From NCBI GenBank assembly GCA_028866895.1, contig JAGWHF010000014.1, positions 1-42,767 on the forward strand: a stretch of 42,767 nt of DNA, given 5' to 3'. Position 1 is the first letter of the stretch. Every line of letters begins with the position of its first letter. Positions 9,104-42,124 of this stretch are shown piece by piece. Origin of the DNA: Nitrososphaerota archaeon. Lineage in GTDB: Archaea; Thermoproteota; Nitrososphaeria; Nitrososphaerales; Nitrosopumilaceae. The notes beneath the pieces are model-generated. The model was not told the DNA's origin. It did no database searches and saw only the letters and a list, made by a program, of their open reading frames with translations. The position numbers and the translations under genes were made by a program.

Positions 9104-9123
9104 GATTATCTCTGATGATAATC
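9104..9123. promoter_or_regulatory. Regulon palindrome for the flavoprotein gene
   Basis: GATTATCT-CTGA-TGATAATC; 7 of 8 half-site positions are symmetric. It lies exactly 39 nt from the minus-strand ATG at 9064. On the other side only 27 nt separate it from the cupredoxin ATG, so it probably does not serve that gene in the same way. Confidence 0.8.
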
Positions 9124-10039: not shown

Positions 10040-11581
10040 TTGCAGCTCAAGACAAGAATTTTAGGTATAGACTCTGGCGGGAAGGCGATTGCATTTCTCA
10101 ATAAAAACGATGCAGACGAGATTGGCATAAGGGCATCCGGCAGAATTACCCTGAAGATTGGAAAAAGAAGCCTAACCGCAATAGTCAACATAACGACGTC
10201 CGTTAGGCGGGGTTTTATAGGGATAAACGAGGAAATAAAGAAGCACCTAGGACTCAAGCAGAATTCCATTGTGGAAATAGAGATAGCAACATTTCCAAAA
10301 TCGCTTCAGTCCATTCACAACAAGCTTACAGGCAGAAGACTTGGGTTTGACGAGATCTCAGAAATTGTCAGGGATGTAGTGCAAGGAAGTCTGAATGAAA
10401 ATGAGATTTCGGCTTTTGTTACAGCCCTGAGTCTGCAGGGATTAGACCTTGACGAGGCAACCGGTCTTGCCCTAGCAATGGTGGATACTGGAAAGCAGTT
10501 GGACCTTGGCAAGAAGATCGTGGTAGACAAGCACAGCATAGGTGGGGTTCCCGGGGACAAGACATCCTTGTTGGTAGTTCCCATCATAGCCGCCATGGGG
10601 CTTACAATTCCAAAGGTCTCCTCGAGGGCAATAACGTCAGCAGGAGGCACTGCCGACAGGGCGGAGTCCCTCATGCCTGTCGACCTCGAAATTCCAGAGA
10701 TGGAAAAGGTCGTAAAAAAAACCAACGGATGCCTCGTGTGGGGCGGCTCTCTCGACCTTGCTCCCGCAGACGACATATTTGTTAGAAGCGAATACTCCCT
10801 CTATATCGACCCATTGTTGCTGCCGTCAATCATGAGCAAGAAAAGGGCTGTCAATGCAACACATCTTGTAATTGACATACCGACCGGAAGGGGGGCAAAG
10901 ATGCAAACAATTGGCGAATCTGATTTTTTGGCCAAGGAACTCATAGAACTCGGAAGGAGGCTTGGCATCCACACACAGTGCATATTAACAAACGGGGAGA
11001 GACCAGTGGGTTTTGCATTAGGTCCTGCCCTTGAAGCAAGAGAGGCCCTCGCTGTATTGATGAACAAATCTTTCGTACCAGATCTTGTGGATAAGGTCTG
11101 CCACATAGCGGGTGGCATTCTCGAGATGGCGGGCAGGAAAAACGGGTACCAGCTTGCAAGAGAGGCCTTGCGCACCGGGAAAGCCGAGAAGAAGATGAGG
11201 GAGATAATCGGACTGCAGGGTGGAAATCCCAAGATAAGACTGGAGGATCTGAATGCAGGCGACGAAAAATACATGGTCAGGTCGAAAAATTCAGGAGAGA
11301 TATTGTGGATGGACAATCTGTCGCTCATAGAGATTGCCCGTGCCGCTGGAGCCCCAAAGGACAAGGGGGCAGGCATAATCTTCAACAAGAAGTTTGGCGA
11401 CGACGTACACCAAGGCGACGTAGTTTATACCATTCATGCCGAGAAACCCCGCAAGCTATCGCGGGCCGTAGAACTCCTGTCCGACATGGAGCCCATAGGT
11501 ATCGGCAAGAGCTACGAGATGTTCATTCACAAGATAAAAGAATCCACAGTCATCAAACGCTCATTTACAATCGAAAGATAG
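10040..11581 (+). CDS. deoA: AMP phosphorylase (archaeal AMP pathway)
   Basis: Converts AMP (or CMP/UMP) plus phosphate to the free base and ribose 1,5-bisphosphate, the first step of the archaeal NMP-degradation route. At 513 aa it has the family's extra N-terminal domain (about residues 1-80), then the thymidine-phosphorylase-like core. That core carries KHSIGGVPGDKTSLL (phosphate-binding) and RAITSAGGTADRAESL near residues 165-215. The TTG at 10040 is chosen because a TATA-like ATTATATG is centred 26 nt upstream, giving a leaderless start. The isomerase gene begins 5 nt after its stop. Released ribose 1,5-bisphosphate feeds the next two enzymes of the operon. Confidence 0.93.
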   Translation: MQLKTRILGIDSGGKAIAFLNKNDADEIGIRASGRITLKIGKRSLTAIVNITTSVRRGFIGINEEIKKHLGLKQNSIVEIEIATFPKSLQSIHNKLTGRRLGFDEISEIVRDVVQGSLNENEISAFVTALSLQGLDLDEATGLALAMVDTGKQLDLGKKIVVDKHSIGGVPGDKTSLLVVPIIAAMGLTIPKVSSRAITSAGGTADRAESLMPVDLEIPEMEKVVKKTNGCLVWGGSLDLAPADDIFVRSEYSLYIDPLLLPSIMSKKRAVNATHLVIDIPTGRGAKMQTIGESDFLAKELIELGRRLGIHTQCILTNGERPVGFALGPALEAREALAVLMNKSFVPDLVDKVCHIAGGILEMAGRKNGYQLAREALRTGKAEKKMREIIGLQGGNPKIRLEDLNAGDEKYMVRSKNSGEILWMDNLSLIEIARAAGAPKDKGAGIIFNKKFGDDVHQGDVVYTIHAEKPRKLSRAVELLSDMEPIGIGKSYEMFIHKIKESTVIKRSFTIER

Positions 11582-11586
11582 AAGTC

Positions 11587-12414
11587 ATGAAGACCATACA
11601 ACAAGCGACAAACGACATAAAAGAATTAAGGATTCAAGGGGCAAACCAAATTGCCCTTTATGGTTTGTCCTACCTGAGGAATATTTCCGTAAGACATGGA
11701 TTTGGCAAAAAATTCAGGGCCGCGGCAAGAATTCTGGAGGGGGCAAGGCCTACCGCGGTCGTACTTCACAATTGCATCGAGATTGTAAAATCAAACCCCA
11801 GAACTTCTACATTTGATTCGCTAATAGACGCATTGAGGACGGTAGGCGGGAGAGAATCCATTTACGCAGACAAAATAATCGACAATAATTCCAAGATAAT
11901 CACTTACTGCCACTCGGGCGAGGCAATGGCATTTATCAAACATGCATGGACCACACATCACAAGAAAATCTCCGTCCTTGCATGCAAGACTGAACCCCGC
12001 GGGCAGGGAATCAAGACCGCAATGGAACTTGCCAAGGGGAAGATACCTGTTACGCTCATCGAGGACAACGCCATTGGGTTCTTCATAAAGGATGTCGACA
12101 TGGTCATTGTGGGTGCGGATGCCCTAAGAAAGGATGGAGTGATAAACAAGATCGGCACCAGCCTCCTAGCACTGGCCGCATCCAATGCCTCAAAGCCCTT
12201 CTATGTTGTCGCCAACTCCCTTAAGATCGACAGGAGAAAGACCTTCCGCATTGAGGAGAGGCCAACGTTGGAAATCAGGAAAACCATACCATCACGGCTT
12301 ACCGGCATCAAGGTACGAAATCCTGCCTTCGACATTACGCTCTGGAATCATGTAACAAGGATCATAAACGAGGATGGCATATTTGCAATTGACAGGTTTG
12401 TGAGATTGTTATGA
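11587..12414 (+). CDS. Ribose-1,5-bisphosphate isomerase
   Basis: Second enzyme of the AMP pathway; isomerises ribose 1,5-bisphosphate to ribulose 1,5-bisphosphate. The 275-aa protein belongs to the eIF-2B alpha/MtnA-like family. It shows TYCHSGEA with the likely catalytic Cys (about residue 103), CKTEPRGQG, and VGADALRKDGVINKIGT with the general-acid Asp. The long open frame reaches back to 11305, but the ATG at 11587 matches the family N-terminus and follows the deoA stop closely. The stop overlaps the RuBisCO ATG (ATGA). The context of AMP phosphorylase on one side and RuBisCO on the other makes the R15P isomerase call strong compared with a true eIF2B subunit. Confidence 0.92.
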   Translation: MKTIQQATNDIKELRIQGANQIALYGLSYLRNISVRHGFGKKFRAAARILEGARPTAVVLHNCIEIVKSNPRTSTFDSLIDALRTVGGRESIYADKIIDNNSKIITYCHSGEAMAFIKHAWTTHHKKISVLACKTEPRGQGIKTAMELAKGKIPVTLIEDNAIGFFIKDVDMVIVGADALRKDGVINKIGTSLLALAASNASKPFYVVANSLKIDRRKTFRIEERPTLEIRKTIPSRLTGIKVRNPAFDITLWNHVTRIINEDGIFAIDRFVRLL

Positions 12415-13706
12415 AGAAGGTTGATTGGTACCAGGATTTTGTGGATTTTGCATACAGGCCCAAGGAAGACGACGTCGTCTGCCTGTTCAGATTCGAACCA
12501 TCGCAAGGAGTCTCAAACCTCGAAGCTGTTGGCAGGATAGCATCTGAGAGTTCTGCCGGCACGTGGACCACGTTGAGCAACCTGCCAAGGAACATTGAGA
12601 GGGTAAAAGCAAGATCATTTGAGATAAAAGGCCGGTTTGTAAGGGTCGCCTATCCGATAGACCTCTGGGAGCCTGGCAACATGCCCCAGTTGCTCAGCGG
12701 GGTTGCCGGAAACATTTTTGGCATGAGGGCGTTGAAGAATCTGAGGCTCGTAGATATTTCCCTGCCAGTTGCATATACAAAGAATTTTCTCGGCCCGCAA
12801 TTTGGAATAGACGGAATACGGAGGATGCTCAAAGTAAAAAGAAGGCCCGTCACAGGGGCAGTGGCCAAACCCAAGGTCGGTTGGGATGCAGAGGAGCATG
12901 CAAAAATTGCGTACGAGACATGGAGTGGCGGATTTGACCTAGTAAAGGATGATGAAAACCTTACCTCTCTGAAATTCAACAAGTTTGAGCAGCGCGTAAA
13001 GCTTTGTTATCGCATGCGCGAGAGGGCGGAGAGGGAGAGCGGCAATAGGAAATCAGCCCTGTTCAACATAACAGGCGAGACTAATCAGATGATTAAGCGT
13101 GCCAAGTTGTTGCATGACTATGGATTTGAATATGTGATGATTGATGTCGTGGTGACGGGTTTTTCGTCACTGCAGACAATGCGAAATGTTTGCCAAGACC
13201 TTGGGCTTGCCATTCACGCACACAGGGCAATGCATGCCGCCTTTGACAGAAACCCGCTGCATGGAATAACCATGTTATTTCTAGCCAAGATGTGCAGGCT
13301 TGTAGGAGTTGACCAGCTTCATGTGGGTGCCGTGGTGGGCAAGCTTGCAGGAACGCCAAAGCAAGTCCTCGAGATAAAAAACCAGATGGTTCTCAAAACC
13401 ATCAAGAACCTCAGTCCGGTACATCTGCAGCAGCAGTGGAATTCTATAAAGCCCGTGTTCCCAGTCTCGTCTGGCGGAATACACCCCGGAATAATTCCCG
13501 AGGTGTTGAGGATCATGGGCAATGAGATCGTAATGCTTGTAAGCGGTGGCATACACGGCCACCCGGACGGGACACGTAGCGGGGCACTTGCAGCCATGCA
13601 ATCAATCATGGCATCCATGGACGGCATACCGTTGCGAGAGTATGCAATGACTCACGCTGAGCTTAGAGCCGCATTGGAAAAATGGGGTCGCATCCGCCCG
13701 GAGTAA
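12411..13706 (+). CDS. rbcL: Form III RuBisCO large subunit
   Basis: Carboxylates ribulose 1,5-bisphosphate to two 3-phosphoglycerates, here at the end of the AMP salvage pathway and not in a Calvin cycle (no phosphoribulokinase is seen). The 431-aa protein has all active-site elements: ESSAGTWTT, AGNIFG (Asn), GAVAKPKVG (Lys), DLVKDDEN with the carbamylated Lys and metal-binding Asp/Glu, HAHRAMHA, QLHVGAVVGKLAG (His and loop-6 Lys), SGGIHPG and SGGIHGHP. It is therefore predicted to be active. Translation is coupled to the isomerase through ATGA. No small subunit is present, as usual for form III. Confidence 0.95.
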   Translation: MKKVDWYQDFVDFAYRPKEDDVVCLFRFEPSQGVSNLEAVGRIASESSAGTWTTLSNLPRNIERVKARSFEIKGRFVRVAYPIDLWEPGNMPQLLSGVAGNIFGMRALKNLRLVDISLPVAYTKNFLGPQFGIDGIRRMLKVKRRPVTGAVAKPKVGWDAEEHAKIAYETWSGGFDLVKDDENLTSLKFNKFEQRVKLCYRMRERAERESGNRKSALFNITGETNQMIKRAKLLHDYGFEYVMIDVVVTGFSSLQTMRNVCQDLGLAIHAHRAMHAAFDRNPLHGITMLFLAKMCRLVGVDQLHVGAVVGKLAGTPKQVLEIKNQMVLKTIKNLSPVHLQQQWNSIKPVFPVSSGGIHPGIIPEVLRIMGNEIVMLVSGGIHGHPDGTRSGALAAMQSIMASMDGIPLREYAMTHAELRAALEKWGRIRPE

Positions 13707-13837: not shown

Positions 13838-14179
13838 CTAATTCCTACCTTCAGAATTAGGAACAATCTCCACGTCAAGAGAGCCATTGCCGAAACATGT
13901 TACAATGGACTTGACCTTGGACTTGTACAAGAAGTATCTTTTGCCATCTTGACTTATCGATCCAGATATGGCAAGTAATTTATGCCGGTGTAGAAGTTGC
14001 ACTCTTCTGTAAGTCGTGCTTATAGGGATGCCACATTCATTGCTGAGATCTATCGTTGATTTTGGCATCTCAAGCGTTGACTCTAGTATTGCACGCGAAT
14101 ACTTGTCTGCTAGAACTTCAAGGAGGGCGTCCTTGGTTGTTTCTTCCTGTACGGGTCTTGTTTGAAGTAAGACTTGCAT
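13838..14179 (-). CDS. Winged helix-turn-helix transcription regulator
   Basis: A 113-aa DNA-binding protein. Residues about 18-85 form an ArsR/TrmB-like winged helix: ILESTLEMPKSTIDLSNECGIPISTTYRRVQLLHRHKLL reads as helix-turn-helix with a recognition helix at ISTTYRRVQLL. A beta-wing follows around SGSISQDGKRYFLYKS, then a short C-terminal strand pair. No sensor Cys cluster. The ATG at 14179 is leaderless with ATTATATC about 26 nt upstream. The regulon palindrome is absent from its own promoter. It is the only clear small DNA-binding protein inside the stress array, so it is a candidate but unproven regulator of that array. Confidence 0.82.
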   Translation of the reverse strand: MQVLLQTRPVQEETTKDALLEVLADKYSRAILESTLEMPKSTIDLSNECGIPISTTYRRVQLLHRHKLLAISGSISQDGKRYFLYKSKVKSIVTCFGNGSLDVEIVPNSEGRN

Positions 14180-14989: not shown

Positions 14990-15009
14990 CAATATCACGG
15001 CTGATAGGC
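14990..15009. promoter_or_regulatory. Regulon palindrome for the 14523 USP
   Basis: CAATATCA-CGGC-TGATAGGC with the TCA-N4-TGA core, 38 nt from the GTG at 14951 on the minus strand. It moves the predicted start inward relative to the longest frame. Confidence 0.7.
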
Positions 15010-18018: not shown

Positions 18019-18038
18019 GAATATCATGCATGATAATC
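18019..18038. promoter_or_regulatory. Regulon palindrome between thermosome and PAC2-hsp20
   Basis: GAATATCA-TGCA-TGATAATC, nearly perfect. It is 39 nt from the thermosome ATG (17979, minus). On the plus side the same rule predicts a transcript start near 18078, giving a leader of about 14 nt with an SD-like AGGTGAG before the GTG at 18092. Confidence 0.85.
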
Positions 18039-21131: not shown

Positions 21132-21151
21132 GATTATCACATCTGATAATT
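21132..21151. promoter_or_regulatory. Regulon palindrome for the CBS gene at 21191
   Basis: GATTATCA-CATC-TGATAATT, close to the perfect consensus, 39 nt from the ATG at 21191, with TTTTATAT centred about 25 nt before that ATG. Confidence 0.88.
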
Positions 21152-26232: not shown

Positions 26233-26252
26233 GATTCTCATTGCTGAGAACG
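26233..26252. promoter_or_regulatory. Regulon palindrome for the nitroreductase operon
   Basis: GATTCTCA-TTGC-TGAGAACG, symmetric TTCTCA/TGAGAA halves, 39 nt from the minus-strand ATG at 26193. Confidence 0.82.
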
Positions 26253-26369: not shown

Positions 26370-26389
26370 CTATATCAGATCTGAAATTC
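26370..26389. promoter_or_regulatory. Regulon palindrome for the 26429 USP
   Basis: CTATATCA-GATC-TGAAATTC, core TCA-N4-TGA, 39 nt from ATG 26429, with TTAATTATA about 25 nt before the start. Confidence 0.78.
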
Positions 26390-29356: not shown

Positions 29357-29376
29357 GATTCTCAATCTTGATAATC
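29357..29376. promoter_or_regulatory. Regulon palindrome for the Hsp20 gene at 28806
   Basis: GATTCTCA-ATCT-TGATAATC, 38 nt from the minus-strand ATG at 29318. Confidence 0.85.
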
Positions 29377-29482: not shown

Positions 29483-29502
29483 AATTATCAACAATGGTAT
29501 TG
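29483..29502. promoter_or_regulatory. Regulon palindrome for phaC
   Basis: AATTATCA-ACAA-TGGTATTG (TCA-N4-TGG core), 38 nt from ATG 29541, with ATTTAAAAC centred 26 nt before the start. Confidence 0.68.
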
Positions 29503-31945: not shown

Positions 31946-31965
31946 TTTTATCATTCTTGATAATT
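31946..31965. promoter_or_regulatory. Regulon palindrome for the CBS gene at 32005
   Basis: TTTTATCA-TTCT-TGATAATT, 39 nt from the TTG start at 32005; TTTATTAT centred 26 nt before the start. Confidence 0.8.
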
Positions 31966-32893: not shown

Positions 32894-32913
32894 GATTCTC
32901 ATATGTGATATTC
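32894..32913. promoter_or_regulatory. Regulon palindrome for the CBS-TIR operon
   Basis: GATTCTCA-TATG-TGATATTC, 39 nt from ATG 32953; AGTAAAATA about 26 nt before the start. Confidence 0.82.
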
Positions 32914-33734: not shown

Positions 33735-34313
33735 ATGATCCGCCGTATTTTTATCGGTTATGCAGGAGGAGACGAGGTCAACGCACGGCAGCTCGCAGAG
33801 GCAGTCTCCAGACTTGGCAACACCGAGGTTTTCATCCCAAACATCCTGGATACTCATGACAGGAATTTGGCCAAAAAAATCAGGAATGGCATAGAAAGTT
33901 CGCATCTAATTATCCTGCTGATTACTTTCAACAGTACAAATACAATCTGGTTGAACCAGGAAATCGGCTACGCAGCGGCTAAAAACATCCCAACGATCCC
34001 CATCGTCGAGAAGGGAATAGACCTGAAGGGATTTCTCGAGGGCATGCAATTCATCGTATTCCAGCGTGGAGATTTTAAGAACGACATATACCAAACAATC
34101 TCAAGAACACGGAGAGTATTTTCTAAACTAGAGACCCCCATCACGCAGTTTCAAGCAACATGCCCCGGATGTAAAATCCAATTATTTCTGAGTATTCCCT
34201 CACAGAATGTCATTGAAAAAATGATCGAAAGGAAGGAAAGAATTCAACACCGATGCAACTCCTGTGCTACAATTTTTTACATTGACCCTGAAACTTTGGA
34301 GAGTCAGGCATAG
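33735..34313 (+). CDS. TIR-domain protein with C-terminal zinc ribbon
   Basis: A 192-aa protein. Residues 1-130 have the TIR flavodoxin-like pattern: RRIFIGYAGGDEVNARQLAEAV, then strand EVFIPN, KKIRNGIESSHLIILLIT, and WLNQEIGYAAA, whose Glu matches the NADase catalytic position of TIR enzymes, then IPTIPIVEKG. Residues about 143-185 form a zinc ribbon with CPGC and CNSC. TIR domains in prokaryotes cleave NAD or make cyclic ADP-ribose signals, often in immunity. Here it follows a CBS gene by 14 nt in a stress regulon, so a role in NAD depletion or dormancy is conceivable but inferred. Confidence 0.78.
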   Translation: MIRRIFIGYAGGDEVNARQLAEAVSRLGNTEVFIPNILDTHDRNLAKKIRNGIESSHLIILLITFNSTNTIWLNQEIGYAAAKNIPTIPIVEKGIDLKGFLEGMQFIVFQRGDFKNDIYQTISRTRRVFSKLETPITQFQATCPGCKIQLFLSIPSQNVIEKMIERKERIQHRCNSCATIFYIDPETLESQA

Positions 34314-35523: not shown

Positions 35524-36303
35524 TCATGCAATCCCCATCTGATAGGCGTCCACCACATCCCTTGCCGTAACAATGCCGGCAATGGAACCTGCATCATCTG
35601 TCAAACCAAGCCTCTTGATCTTCCTTGACCCCATAATCCTGGCAGCCTCGTTTGCCAAGATGCCTTTCCTTGCAGTGACAAGAGGGAAGGAGGAAAACGG
35701 CCCTACCTTTTTGTCAAGACCCACTTTTTTTGCCATCACACGGACCAGATCCCGCTGAGTAAAGATGCCAAAGGATGCATCCCTCTCAACCAAAATGCTT
35801 CCTATGTTCTTTTCCTCCATCAGCTTTGCAGCATCAAGAATCGTAGTATCAAAGGGACAGTGATAGACTATCGTGCTGACAACCTTGTCCAATCCCGGGG
35901 ATTTTCCAGTTTCCCCGAATGCTCTGAGCATGTCTGATGCTGTTATAGTCCCAACAAGTTTGTCACCATCTGCAAAGACCAGAACGCGCGACCTTTTTGA
36001 TATCATTAGCTTAGCAGCCTCCAAGACAGTAGTATCAGGGGTCACAGAAACAAAGGGACGAAGGGCTACATTCCTTACCCTTTCATCCATGCTTTTTCGA
36101 CCAGAGGAAACATACCTTACAATCTCCCTCTCAGTAAGGATCCCAAGTGGCATCGTACTGTCCTCCTCCATGACGATAAGCGTGGCAATCCTACTTTCGG
36201 CCATAAAATCAACAACATCACCGATAGAAACATCAGGTTTAACTGATATCGGATATTCGGACATGTATTTCCCTACTAACTGAGACTTCATCTCTGATTC
36301 CAC
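35524..36303 (-). CDS. Four-CBS-domain protein
   Basis: A 259-aa paralog of the 32005 and 32953 proteins: VGKYMSEYPISVKPD...GILTEREIVRYV; RVLVFADGDKLVGTITASDMLRAF; IGSILVERDASFGIFTQRDLVRVM; RLGLTDDAGSIAGIVTARDVVDAY. The open frame reaches 36351, overlapping the operator. The GTG at 36303 is exactly 39 nt from the palindrome at 36343-36362 and is chosen; an ATG at 36291 is the alternative. It likely forms an operon with the M50-CBS protease and is divergent from a USP through a single shared site. Confidence 0.88.
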   Translation of the reverse strand: MESEMKSQLVGKYMSEYPISVKPDVSIGDVVDFMAESRIATLIVMEEDSTMPLGILTEREIVRYVSSGRKSMDERVRNVALRPFVSVTPDTTVLEAAKLMISKRSRVLVFADGDKLVGTITASDMLRAFGETGKSPGLDKVVSTIVYHCPFDTTILDAAKLMEEKNIGSILVERDASFGIFTQRDLVRVMAKKVGLDKKVGPFSSFPLVTARKGILANEAARIMGSRKIKRLGLTDDAGSIAGIVTARDVVDAYQMGIA

Positions 36304-36342
36304 TGATATAATTTCGAATATGAGTATTTTACTCTGCATATA

Positions 36343-36362
36343 GGATATCACAGGTGATATTC
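36343..36362. promoter_or_regulatory. Regulon palindrome shared by divergent CBS and USP genes
   Basis: GGATATCA-CAGG-TGATATTC. It is 39 nt from the GTG at 36303 (minus) and 39 nt from the ATG at 36402 (plus), so one symmetric site appears to serve both promoters. TTTTAATAA is centred 26 nt before 36402. Confidence 0.88.
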
Positions 36363-36401
36363 AACAACTTGTTTTAATAAAATACACCGCCTAGCATGGT
36401 A

Positions 36402-36848
36402 ATGACAAATGAAAAGTTTTCGAACATTGTTGTGGCAATTGACGGATCCAGCCTTTCAAAAAAGGCGGCAGACTATGCACTCTCTTTGGCAAAAGAGCAC
36501 AATGCAAAGCTTTCTGCAGTCGCAGTGGTAAAGTTCCACCAGGCCGACGCGTTCCGCGGTTCTACTTCCACCCTTGAGAAATTCATACGGAAGCAGGCAG
36601 AGATTGCCCAAAAATGGACCGAAGCGGTGAAGACAGAGGCTGCTAGAACCGACGTGAAGTTTGAATCCAAGGTCATAAAAACCAGGACAAACGTTCCTGA
36701 GGAGATTATCAAGTATGCCAAGGACAAGAGATCGGACCTTATCGTCCTTGGGACAAGAGGAAGGACGGGCTTTAAAAAAGCACTCCTTGGAAGCGTCGCT
36801 TCGGCGGTTATAACCCATGCAAGCTGTCCCGTAATGGTAGTAAGATAG
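36402..36848 (+). CDS. Universal stress protein (UspA family)
   Basis: A 148-aa USP: IVVAIDGSSLSKKAADYAL and LGTRGRTGFKKALLGSV (about residues 116-132), intact G-x2-G-x9-GS. ATG 36402 is preferred to 36396 because of the 39-nt operator spacing. The MFS transporter gene follows 82 nt after its stop on the same strand with its own SD, so the two may be co-transcribed. Confidence 0.92.
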   Translation: MTNEKFSNIVVAIDGSSLSKKAADYALSLAKEHNAKLSAVAVVKFHQADAFRGSTSTLEKFIRKQAEIAQKWTEAVKTEAARTDVKFESKVIKTRTNVPEEIIKYAKDKRSDLIVLGTRGRTGFKKALLGSVASAVITHASCPVMVVR

Positions 36849-42104: not shown

Positions 42105-42124
42105 CATTATCAAGACTGAGAAAG
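42105..42124. promoter_or_regulatory. Regulon palindrome for the CBS-zinc-finger gene
   Basis: CATTATCA-AGAC-TGAGAAAG, core TCA-N4-TGA, 38 nt from ATG 42163; TAATATTAAAT centred about 27 nt before the start. Confidence 0.72.

Follow-up and report, generated by a model that had tools for sequence, protein, structure and literature searches.

The 20-bp palindrome at 36343-36362 of contig JAGWHF010000014.1 from a Nitrososphaerota archaeon of the Nitrosopumilaceae (assembly GCA_028866895.1) lies between a universal stress protein (USP) gene and a divergent gene for a CBS-domain protein, and it probably serves the promoters of both. The window analysed here is the whole stretch of 42,767 nt, which is the entire contig C5 of the 2.26-Mb host genome. 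We give a probability of about 0.78 to the reading that a dimeric winged-helix activator, for which the protein encoded at 13838-14179 or a paralogue is the candidate, binds the palindrome between two opposed promoters, each with a TFB-recognition element (BRE) and a TATA box, that yield leaderless mRNAs. In this mechanism, one homodimeric regulator, most likely a transcriptional activator, would occupy the palindrome just upstream of the BRE/TATA of both promoters. The symmetry of the site would let the dimer offer the same face both ways and aid TBP/TFB on either TATA box. Each TATA box begins about 11 nt from the palindrome edge, and transcription would start about 25 nt further along, on or immediately beside the start codon. 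Both mRNAs would then be leaderless, and geometry would set the distance from palindrome to start (39-41 nt). Since the dimer would help both promoters, the CBS and USP genes would be co-expressed, as members of a regulon for stress and proteostasis with about 50 sites.

The opposite arms of the 20-mer, GGATATCACAGGTGATATTC, pair at 8 of 10 positions. A sequence-only reading of the window had placed this element exactly 39 nt from an ATG on the plus strand (36402, USP) and from a GTG on the minus strand (36303, CBS), and both gaps were borne out to the nucleotide; in the counting used below, a 39-nt gap between palindrome edge and start codon puts the start at +40. The two start codons are 99 bp apart. 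It had also stated that the longest frames would begin elsewhere, and they do, at ATG 36396 for the USP and at GTG 36351, inside the palindrome, for the CBS protein; two additional in-frame CBS starts that it left unmentioned are ATG 36339 and ATG 36291. The CBS gene product contains four CBS stretches.

The palindrome belongs to a motif, GATTATCAnnnnTGATAATC, with the consensus GATTATCA-N4-TGATAATC and an unconstrained 4-nt centre. When up to 3 mismatches were allowed, the host genome contained 51 motif places; reading the pattern in reverse, as a control, gave 1. About ten strong copies lie within the window alone. Around the 42 strong sites (matrix score of at least 17, 84 directions, frames of at least 40 codons), 12 ATG/GTG starts fell at +40 versus 0.90 expected (P(40) = 2.6e-10), accompanied by 3 at +39 and 7 at +41 on the same background of 0.90 per position; lowering the matrix score to at least 14 gave P(39-41) = 2.2e-15. 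Permuted-matrix controls produced almost no sites and hence no information on spacing. Other species of the genus showed the same peak (25 starts at +40 and 27 at +41, background 2.8; P(39-41) = 6.9e-31), as did, more weakly, two genomes of other genera (5 at +40, background 0.32; P = 2.3e-5), so that the spacing rule proposed for the window extends to the genome, the genus and, less strongly, beyond it. A motif excess over control was present in nearly all sampled family members. The TATA box occupies +11 to +17 from the site edge, with T at +11/+12 and A/T at +13 to +16, and its distance to the start codon is compatible with a leaderless archaeal promoter, as judged from sequence. Some motif copies form pairs offset by exactly 13 bp that partly share a half-site (L087:2954-2986; L027, C54:87425-87457; L133:1501-1533; G124:C1:32125-32157), and in the L133 pair each copy faces its own divergent gene.

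The two-sided arrangement is conserved. The same USP/CBS pair flanks the palindrome in Centralia_MAG_109 (G010), Centralia_MAG_78 (L046, G027) and REEA5 (L049, G024), with the CBS ATG at 40 in all three species, the USP ATG at 40 or 41, and mirror-image TATA boxes kept on both sides. When the four regions were aligned, invariant columns made up 16/20 of the palindrome and 9/9 and 8/9 of the USP and CBS TATA regions; the stretch from TATA to start drifts, with 5/21 on each side. ATG 36396 was not conserved in this alignment. Among the 13 CBS orthologues examined, 12 start 39-42 from a site, with or without an adjoining USP gene, and one (L107) has no site; several have stop codons just upstream of the start. 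GTG 36303 (VESEMKSQLVGKYMSEYP) aligns with the ATG at which the L048 orthologue begins (MELKMEDLLVGKYMSEYP), both lying 18 residues from the same point, and this match of N-termini argues against the CBS starts at 36351, 36339 and 36291. Orthologous N-termini support both start codons, 36303 and 36402, favoured by the sequence-only reading. A divergent CBS/USP pair in G210 has a palindrome for each gene: the two copies overlap by 7 bp (13-bp offset), and either start lies exactly 40 from its own copy (L133), which indicates that conservation acts on the distance between a start and its site. In G205, from another genus, a site lies between AdoMet synthetase-like and AmrS-like genes, so named from their N-termini with no family search, and a GTG stands at 40 on both sides (L132).

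We considered whether a single promoter might be real, the other equal distance being due to chance, as many genomic sites serve one gene only. However, four species keep the TATA region and the spacing on either side, and, at a background of about 0.011 starts (frames of at least 40 codons) per direction per position, exact +40 starts on both sides are expected about 0.005 times among the 42 strong sites versus 2 sites seen. The single-promoter explanation is therefore highly improbable, and by these counts the equal spacing at 36343-36362 is no coincidence. Lower still, and close to negligible, is the chance that the palindrome is an RNA hairpin, a terminator or the end of a mobile element instead of a protein site. 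Inverted repeats can be any of these, an idea that no analysis here supports, but this one lies upstream of both predicted transcripts and lacks a T-run, its centre is free to vary, and copies of the motif stand ahead of unrelated genes across the genome, always with the same distance to TATA. The claim that one symmetric site drives two promoters and fixes both start codons stands for its two-sided arrangement, now found in three more species, whereas driving and fixing are read from the anatomy; the palindrome would be better described as positioning TBP/TFB so that the transcription start meets the start codon. Motif, spacing, TATA boxes, conservation and start-codon alignment can all be read directly in the DNA.

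The best candidate for the regulator, judged by its co-occurrence with the motif and, in a different family (f10), by motif sites next to the gene of its homologue, is the protein of 13838-14179 or a close paralogue. The gene is situated within the stress island, and its AlphaFold model (predicted local distance difference test score 86.8) has an ArsR-like winged helix. The best Foldseek hits of the model were ArsR-type proteins, including NolR and Phr (2p4w_B, TM 0.71 over 104 columns). The sequence gave a sub-threshold HTH_IclR match and no ArsR match in Pfam, no match in NCBIfam, ArsR models included, and Phr 2p4w was not among the 20 chains listed at E<=1 when the candidate family profile was searched against PDB sequences. 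Within the genus, the motif excess was 24 per Mb in genomes with a close candidate homologue versus 12 without (P = 1.7e-4), and in 122 other family genomes it was 32 versus 16 (P = 1.4e-14), P values that shared ancestry inflates and that depend on thresholds (E<1e-20 for the family, the identity clade for the genus) set after the data were seen. With the same caveats, the association held when the largest genus was taken by itself (P = 7.5e-7) and for genomes of at least 1.5 Mb (P = 2.3e-7).

The strongest link between candidate and motif comes from another family, f10, whose 13 genomes have only 46 motif places. Of these, 14 are within 700 bp of the gene for a candidate homologue, either 2-10 bp past the gene or 676-687 bp ahead of it, and they are spread over 11 of 13 species. 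In G059, the upstream site, a TATA box and an ATG at +42 precede a small membrane-protein-like gene that is followed by the regulator homologue, an arrangement that suggests autoregulation. At L083:2599-4017 and related f10 loci, the motif stands at the promoter of the small membrane-protein-like gene, the regulator homologue comes next and a second motif copy lies just after it. Two cysteines of the candidate (C49 and C95, window numbering) are mostly conserved in close homologues and absent at those positions in f10 homologues; by analogy with OxsR they might possibly act as a redox sensor. Beside the candidate gene lie genes for a type III RuBisCO and a thymidine/AMP-phosphorylase-like protein (12411-13706 and 10040-11581, both +), and the regulator has RuBisCO-like frames beside it in G010 (L055) and G027 (L053) as well. 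The genome carries an archaeal amoA (E = 1.4e-104), which makes the host an ammonia oxidiser, and a form III RuBisCO in such an organism is worth attention.

Another regulator might bind the palindrome, for instance a ribbon-helix-helix (RHH) protein of the L026 type, with a motif site of its own at +42; the RHH gene at C54:35430 has a motif site upstream of it, and RHH and winged helix-turn-helix genes adjoin at several loci (L064, L086). When the presence of homologues was tested against site numbers, this candidate was disfavoured. In f10, RHH homologues at E<=1e-3 are absent from G045 and G059, genomes whose only motif places adjoin the winged helix-turn-helix gene. G005 encodes an RHH protein of 74% identity yet has few sites (9 vs 2), and G001, G003 and G011 lack a close RHH but contain 51-56 sites. 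We regard it as an unlikely explanation, given somewhat less weight than the repressor discussed below. As a separate observation, RHH genes repeatedly adjoin candidate homologues (L064:415-1845, L086:4983-6409, G000:C44:136460-137353) and may encode a partner.

A palindromic site directly upstream of BRE/TATA and at a constrained distance from it, as found here, has the anatomy of an archaeal activator site. Such sites act as activators in archaea (PMC2995911, PMC7830388, PMC9426492), which we counted in favour of the winged-helix activator, and activators at this position are also documented in PMC8241225. With the same site and both promoters, the bound dimer could alternatively be a repressor, standing in the way of TFB at both BREs until stress brings its release. 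ArsR-fold proteins commonly repress, including Phr, which resembles the candidate model (2p4w_B, TM 0.71). The site, however, does not overlap BRE/TATA and keeps a fixed distance from it in both directions, and archaeal sites so placed are reported to be activating, downstream ones repressing (PMC9426492, PMC2995911); moreover, spacing as tight as +-1 nt is unnecessary for a repressor site. Repression thus seems unlikely, and we infer binding, activation over repression, leaderless transcripts, stress induction and the identity of the regulator.

Several observations weigh against an activator encoded at 13838-14179 that acts through this geometry. No start codon lies at 39-42 from 20 of the 42 strong sites; some of these have a TATA box but a small or leadered gene, and others lie within genes and are probably chance matches. 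The f10 motif sites share ancestry and hence are not independent events. Certain genomes that lack a close candidate homologue still have many sites (e.g., G248, 44 vs 9), and the host genome has up to 13 candidate homologues; its paralogues include those at C87:100206 and C76:41484. No motif copy with a score of at least 13 was found within 2 kb of the candidate gene in the window; the element at 14990-15009 scores 13.7 only with an earlier matrix. ArsR-fold proteins are, in addition, usually repressors.

Table 1 Coordinates of the shared site, its promoters and genes, the candidate regulator and further motif sites in the window
Feature	Coordinates	Strand	Remarks
Shared 20-bp palindrome, putative regulator site	36343..36362	none	genome-wide motif; conserved in 4 species
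USP gene	36402..36848	+	ATG 36402, 148 aa; Pfam Usp E=4.5e-35; alternative ATG 36396
CBS-domain protein gene	35524..36303	-	GTG 36303, 259 aa; Pfam CBS E=1.3e-40; start level with orthologous ATG at equal distance from site
USP promoter TATA region	36372..36380	+	box TTTAATAA at 36373-36380; follows the general +11..+17 rule
CBS promoter TATA region	36325..36333	-	box GTAAAATA at 36325-36332
Candidate regulator, ArsR-like fold	13838..14179	-	113-aa winged helix-turn-helix protein; recognition helix ~residues 53-65 (ISTTYRRVQLLH)
Second two-sided site	9104..9123	none	PNPOx-like ATG 9064 (-) and cupredoxin-like GTG 9163 (+), both +40; 40/40 also in G010 (L088)
Thermosome gene site	18019..18038	-	ATG 17979 at +40
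CBS gene site	21132..21151	+	ATG 21191 at +40; longest frame from TTG 21152
Nitroreductase-like gene site	26233..26252	-	ATG 26193 at +40
Weak USP gene site	26370..26389	+	ATG 26429 at +40
Hsp20 gene site	29357..29376	-	ATG 29318 at +39
PHA synthase gene site	29483..29502	+	ATG 29541 at +39
CBS gene site	31946..31965	+	TTG 32005 at +40
CBS gene site	32894..32913	+	ATG 32953 at +40
Weaker CBS gene site	42105..42124	+	ATG 42163 at +39; longest frame from ATG 42145

By site, TATA box and start, the regulon includes genes for the thermosome, Hsp20 proteins, a large AAA+-like ATPase, USPs, CBS proteins and polyhydroxyalkanoate (PHA) synthase, together with nitroreductase-like, PNPOx-like, cupredoxin-like, AdoMet synthetase-like and AmrS-like genes, several of these names having been assigned by us from the sequences. 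In gene content, the set is reminiscent of the mycobacterial DosR regulon (USP, CBS, Hsp20, nitroreductase), as a resemblance only. At the G010 counterpart of the second two-sided site, the cupredoxin-like gene again starts with GTG. Paralogues of USP and CBS genes crowd the window, and many of them carry a separate copy of the motif. Beside the CBS genes, 33735-34313 (+) encodes a 192-aa protein whose N-terminus looks TIR-like or nucleotide-binding-like (MIRRIFIGYAGGDEVNARQLAEAV) and whose C-terminus has cysteine pairs.

More tentatively, and at slightly short of even odds, the system may be a hitherto undescribed global stress regulator of ammonia-oxidising archaea, in which a small ArsR-fold activator would act through symmetric sites on thermosome, Hsp20, AAA+ ATPase, USP and CBS genes, one dimer firing two divergent leaderless promoters whose start codons geometry would fix, throughout the family. 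In Sulfolobus, no binding motif for heat-shock protein genes was found, and the Phr/HSR1 regulons exclude the thermosome (PMC10653856). The control of chaperone genes in archaea outside the Euryarchaeota is therefore an open question, and a motif of fixed geometry before thermosome, Hsp20, AAA+ and USP genes, enriched family-wide, makes it testable with one protein and one 20-bp site. The spacing also offers a practical rule for calling start codons, GTG included, in these genomes.

No description of the motif, the regulon or the candidate regulator was found in the literature searched, which covered few subscription papers. Sites with this architecture have archaeal precedents (GvpE, CopR, Ptr2); the motif, the family-wide regulon and the candidate regulator are seemingly undescribed. 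The GvpE upstream activating sequence of haloarchaeal gas-vesicle promoters is likewise a 20-nt activator site just upstream of BRE/TATA, from which PpA and PpD are stimulated, but it has another sequence, belongs to another lineage, is dedicated to gas vesicles and gives mostly transcripts with leaders (PMC8241225). The targets here are genes for stress proteins and chaperones. GvpE is not known to have the ArsR fold.

CopR of Pyrococcus furiosus binds a semi-palindrome directly upstream of BRE, and one bound complex can activate two divergent units, with start sites about 122 bp apart (PMC7830388). It is copper-specific and its motif is TTNNCAWWWTGNNAA, whereas here a single 20-bp site with the motif GATTATCAnnnnTGATAATC separates start codons 99 bp apart and the targets are mostly not copper genes, a CopA-like ATPase near one site (L044) notwithstanding. 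Phr and HSR1, the heat-shock regulators of Euryarchaeota, share the ArsR-type winged helix with the candidate model, with no sequence relationship to Phr showing among the 20 chains listed in the PDB search. They are repressors with other sites. Their regulons contain small heat-shock protein and AAA+ ATPase genes and lack the thermosome (PMC10653856), which the regulon described here includes. The archaeal Lrp activators (Ptr2, LysM, Ss-LrpB) also bind as dimers within a few bp of BRE on its upstream side, where their position is tightly constrained, and act via TBP (PMC2995911), but differ in protein family, motif and targets. OxsR of Haloferax volcanii is, like the candidate, a single winged-helix domain and activates transcription through a palindromic motif that lies ahead of BRE/TATA (PMC9426492); it differs in belonging to the TrmB family, in its CG-rich motif and in its response to thiol stress.
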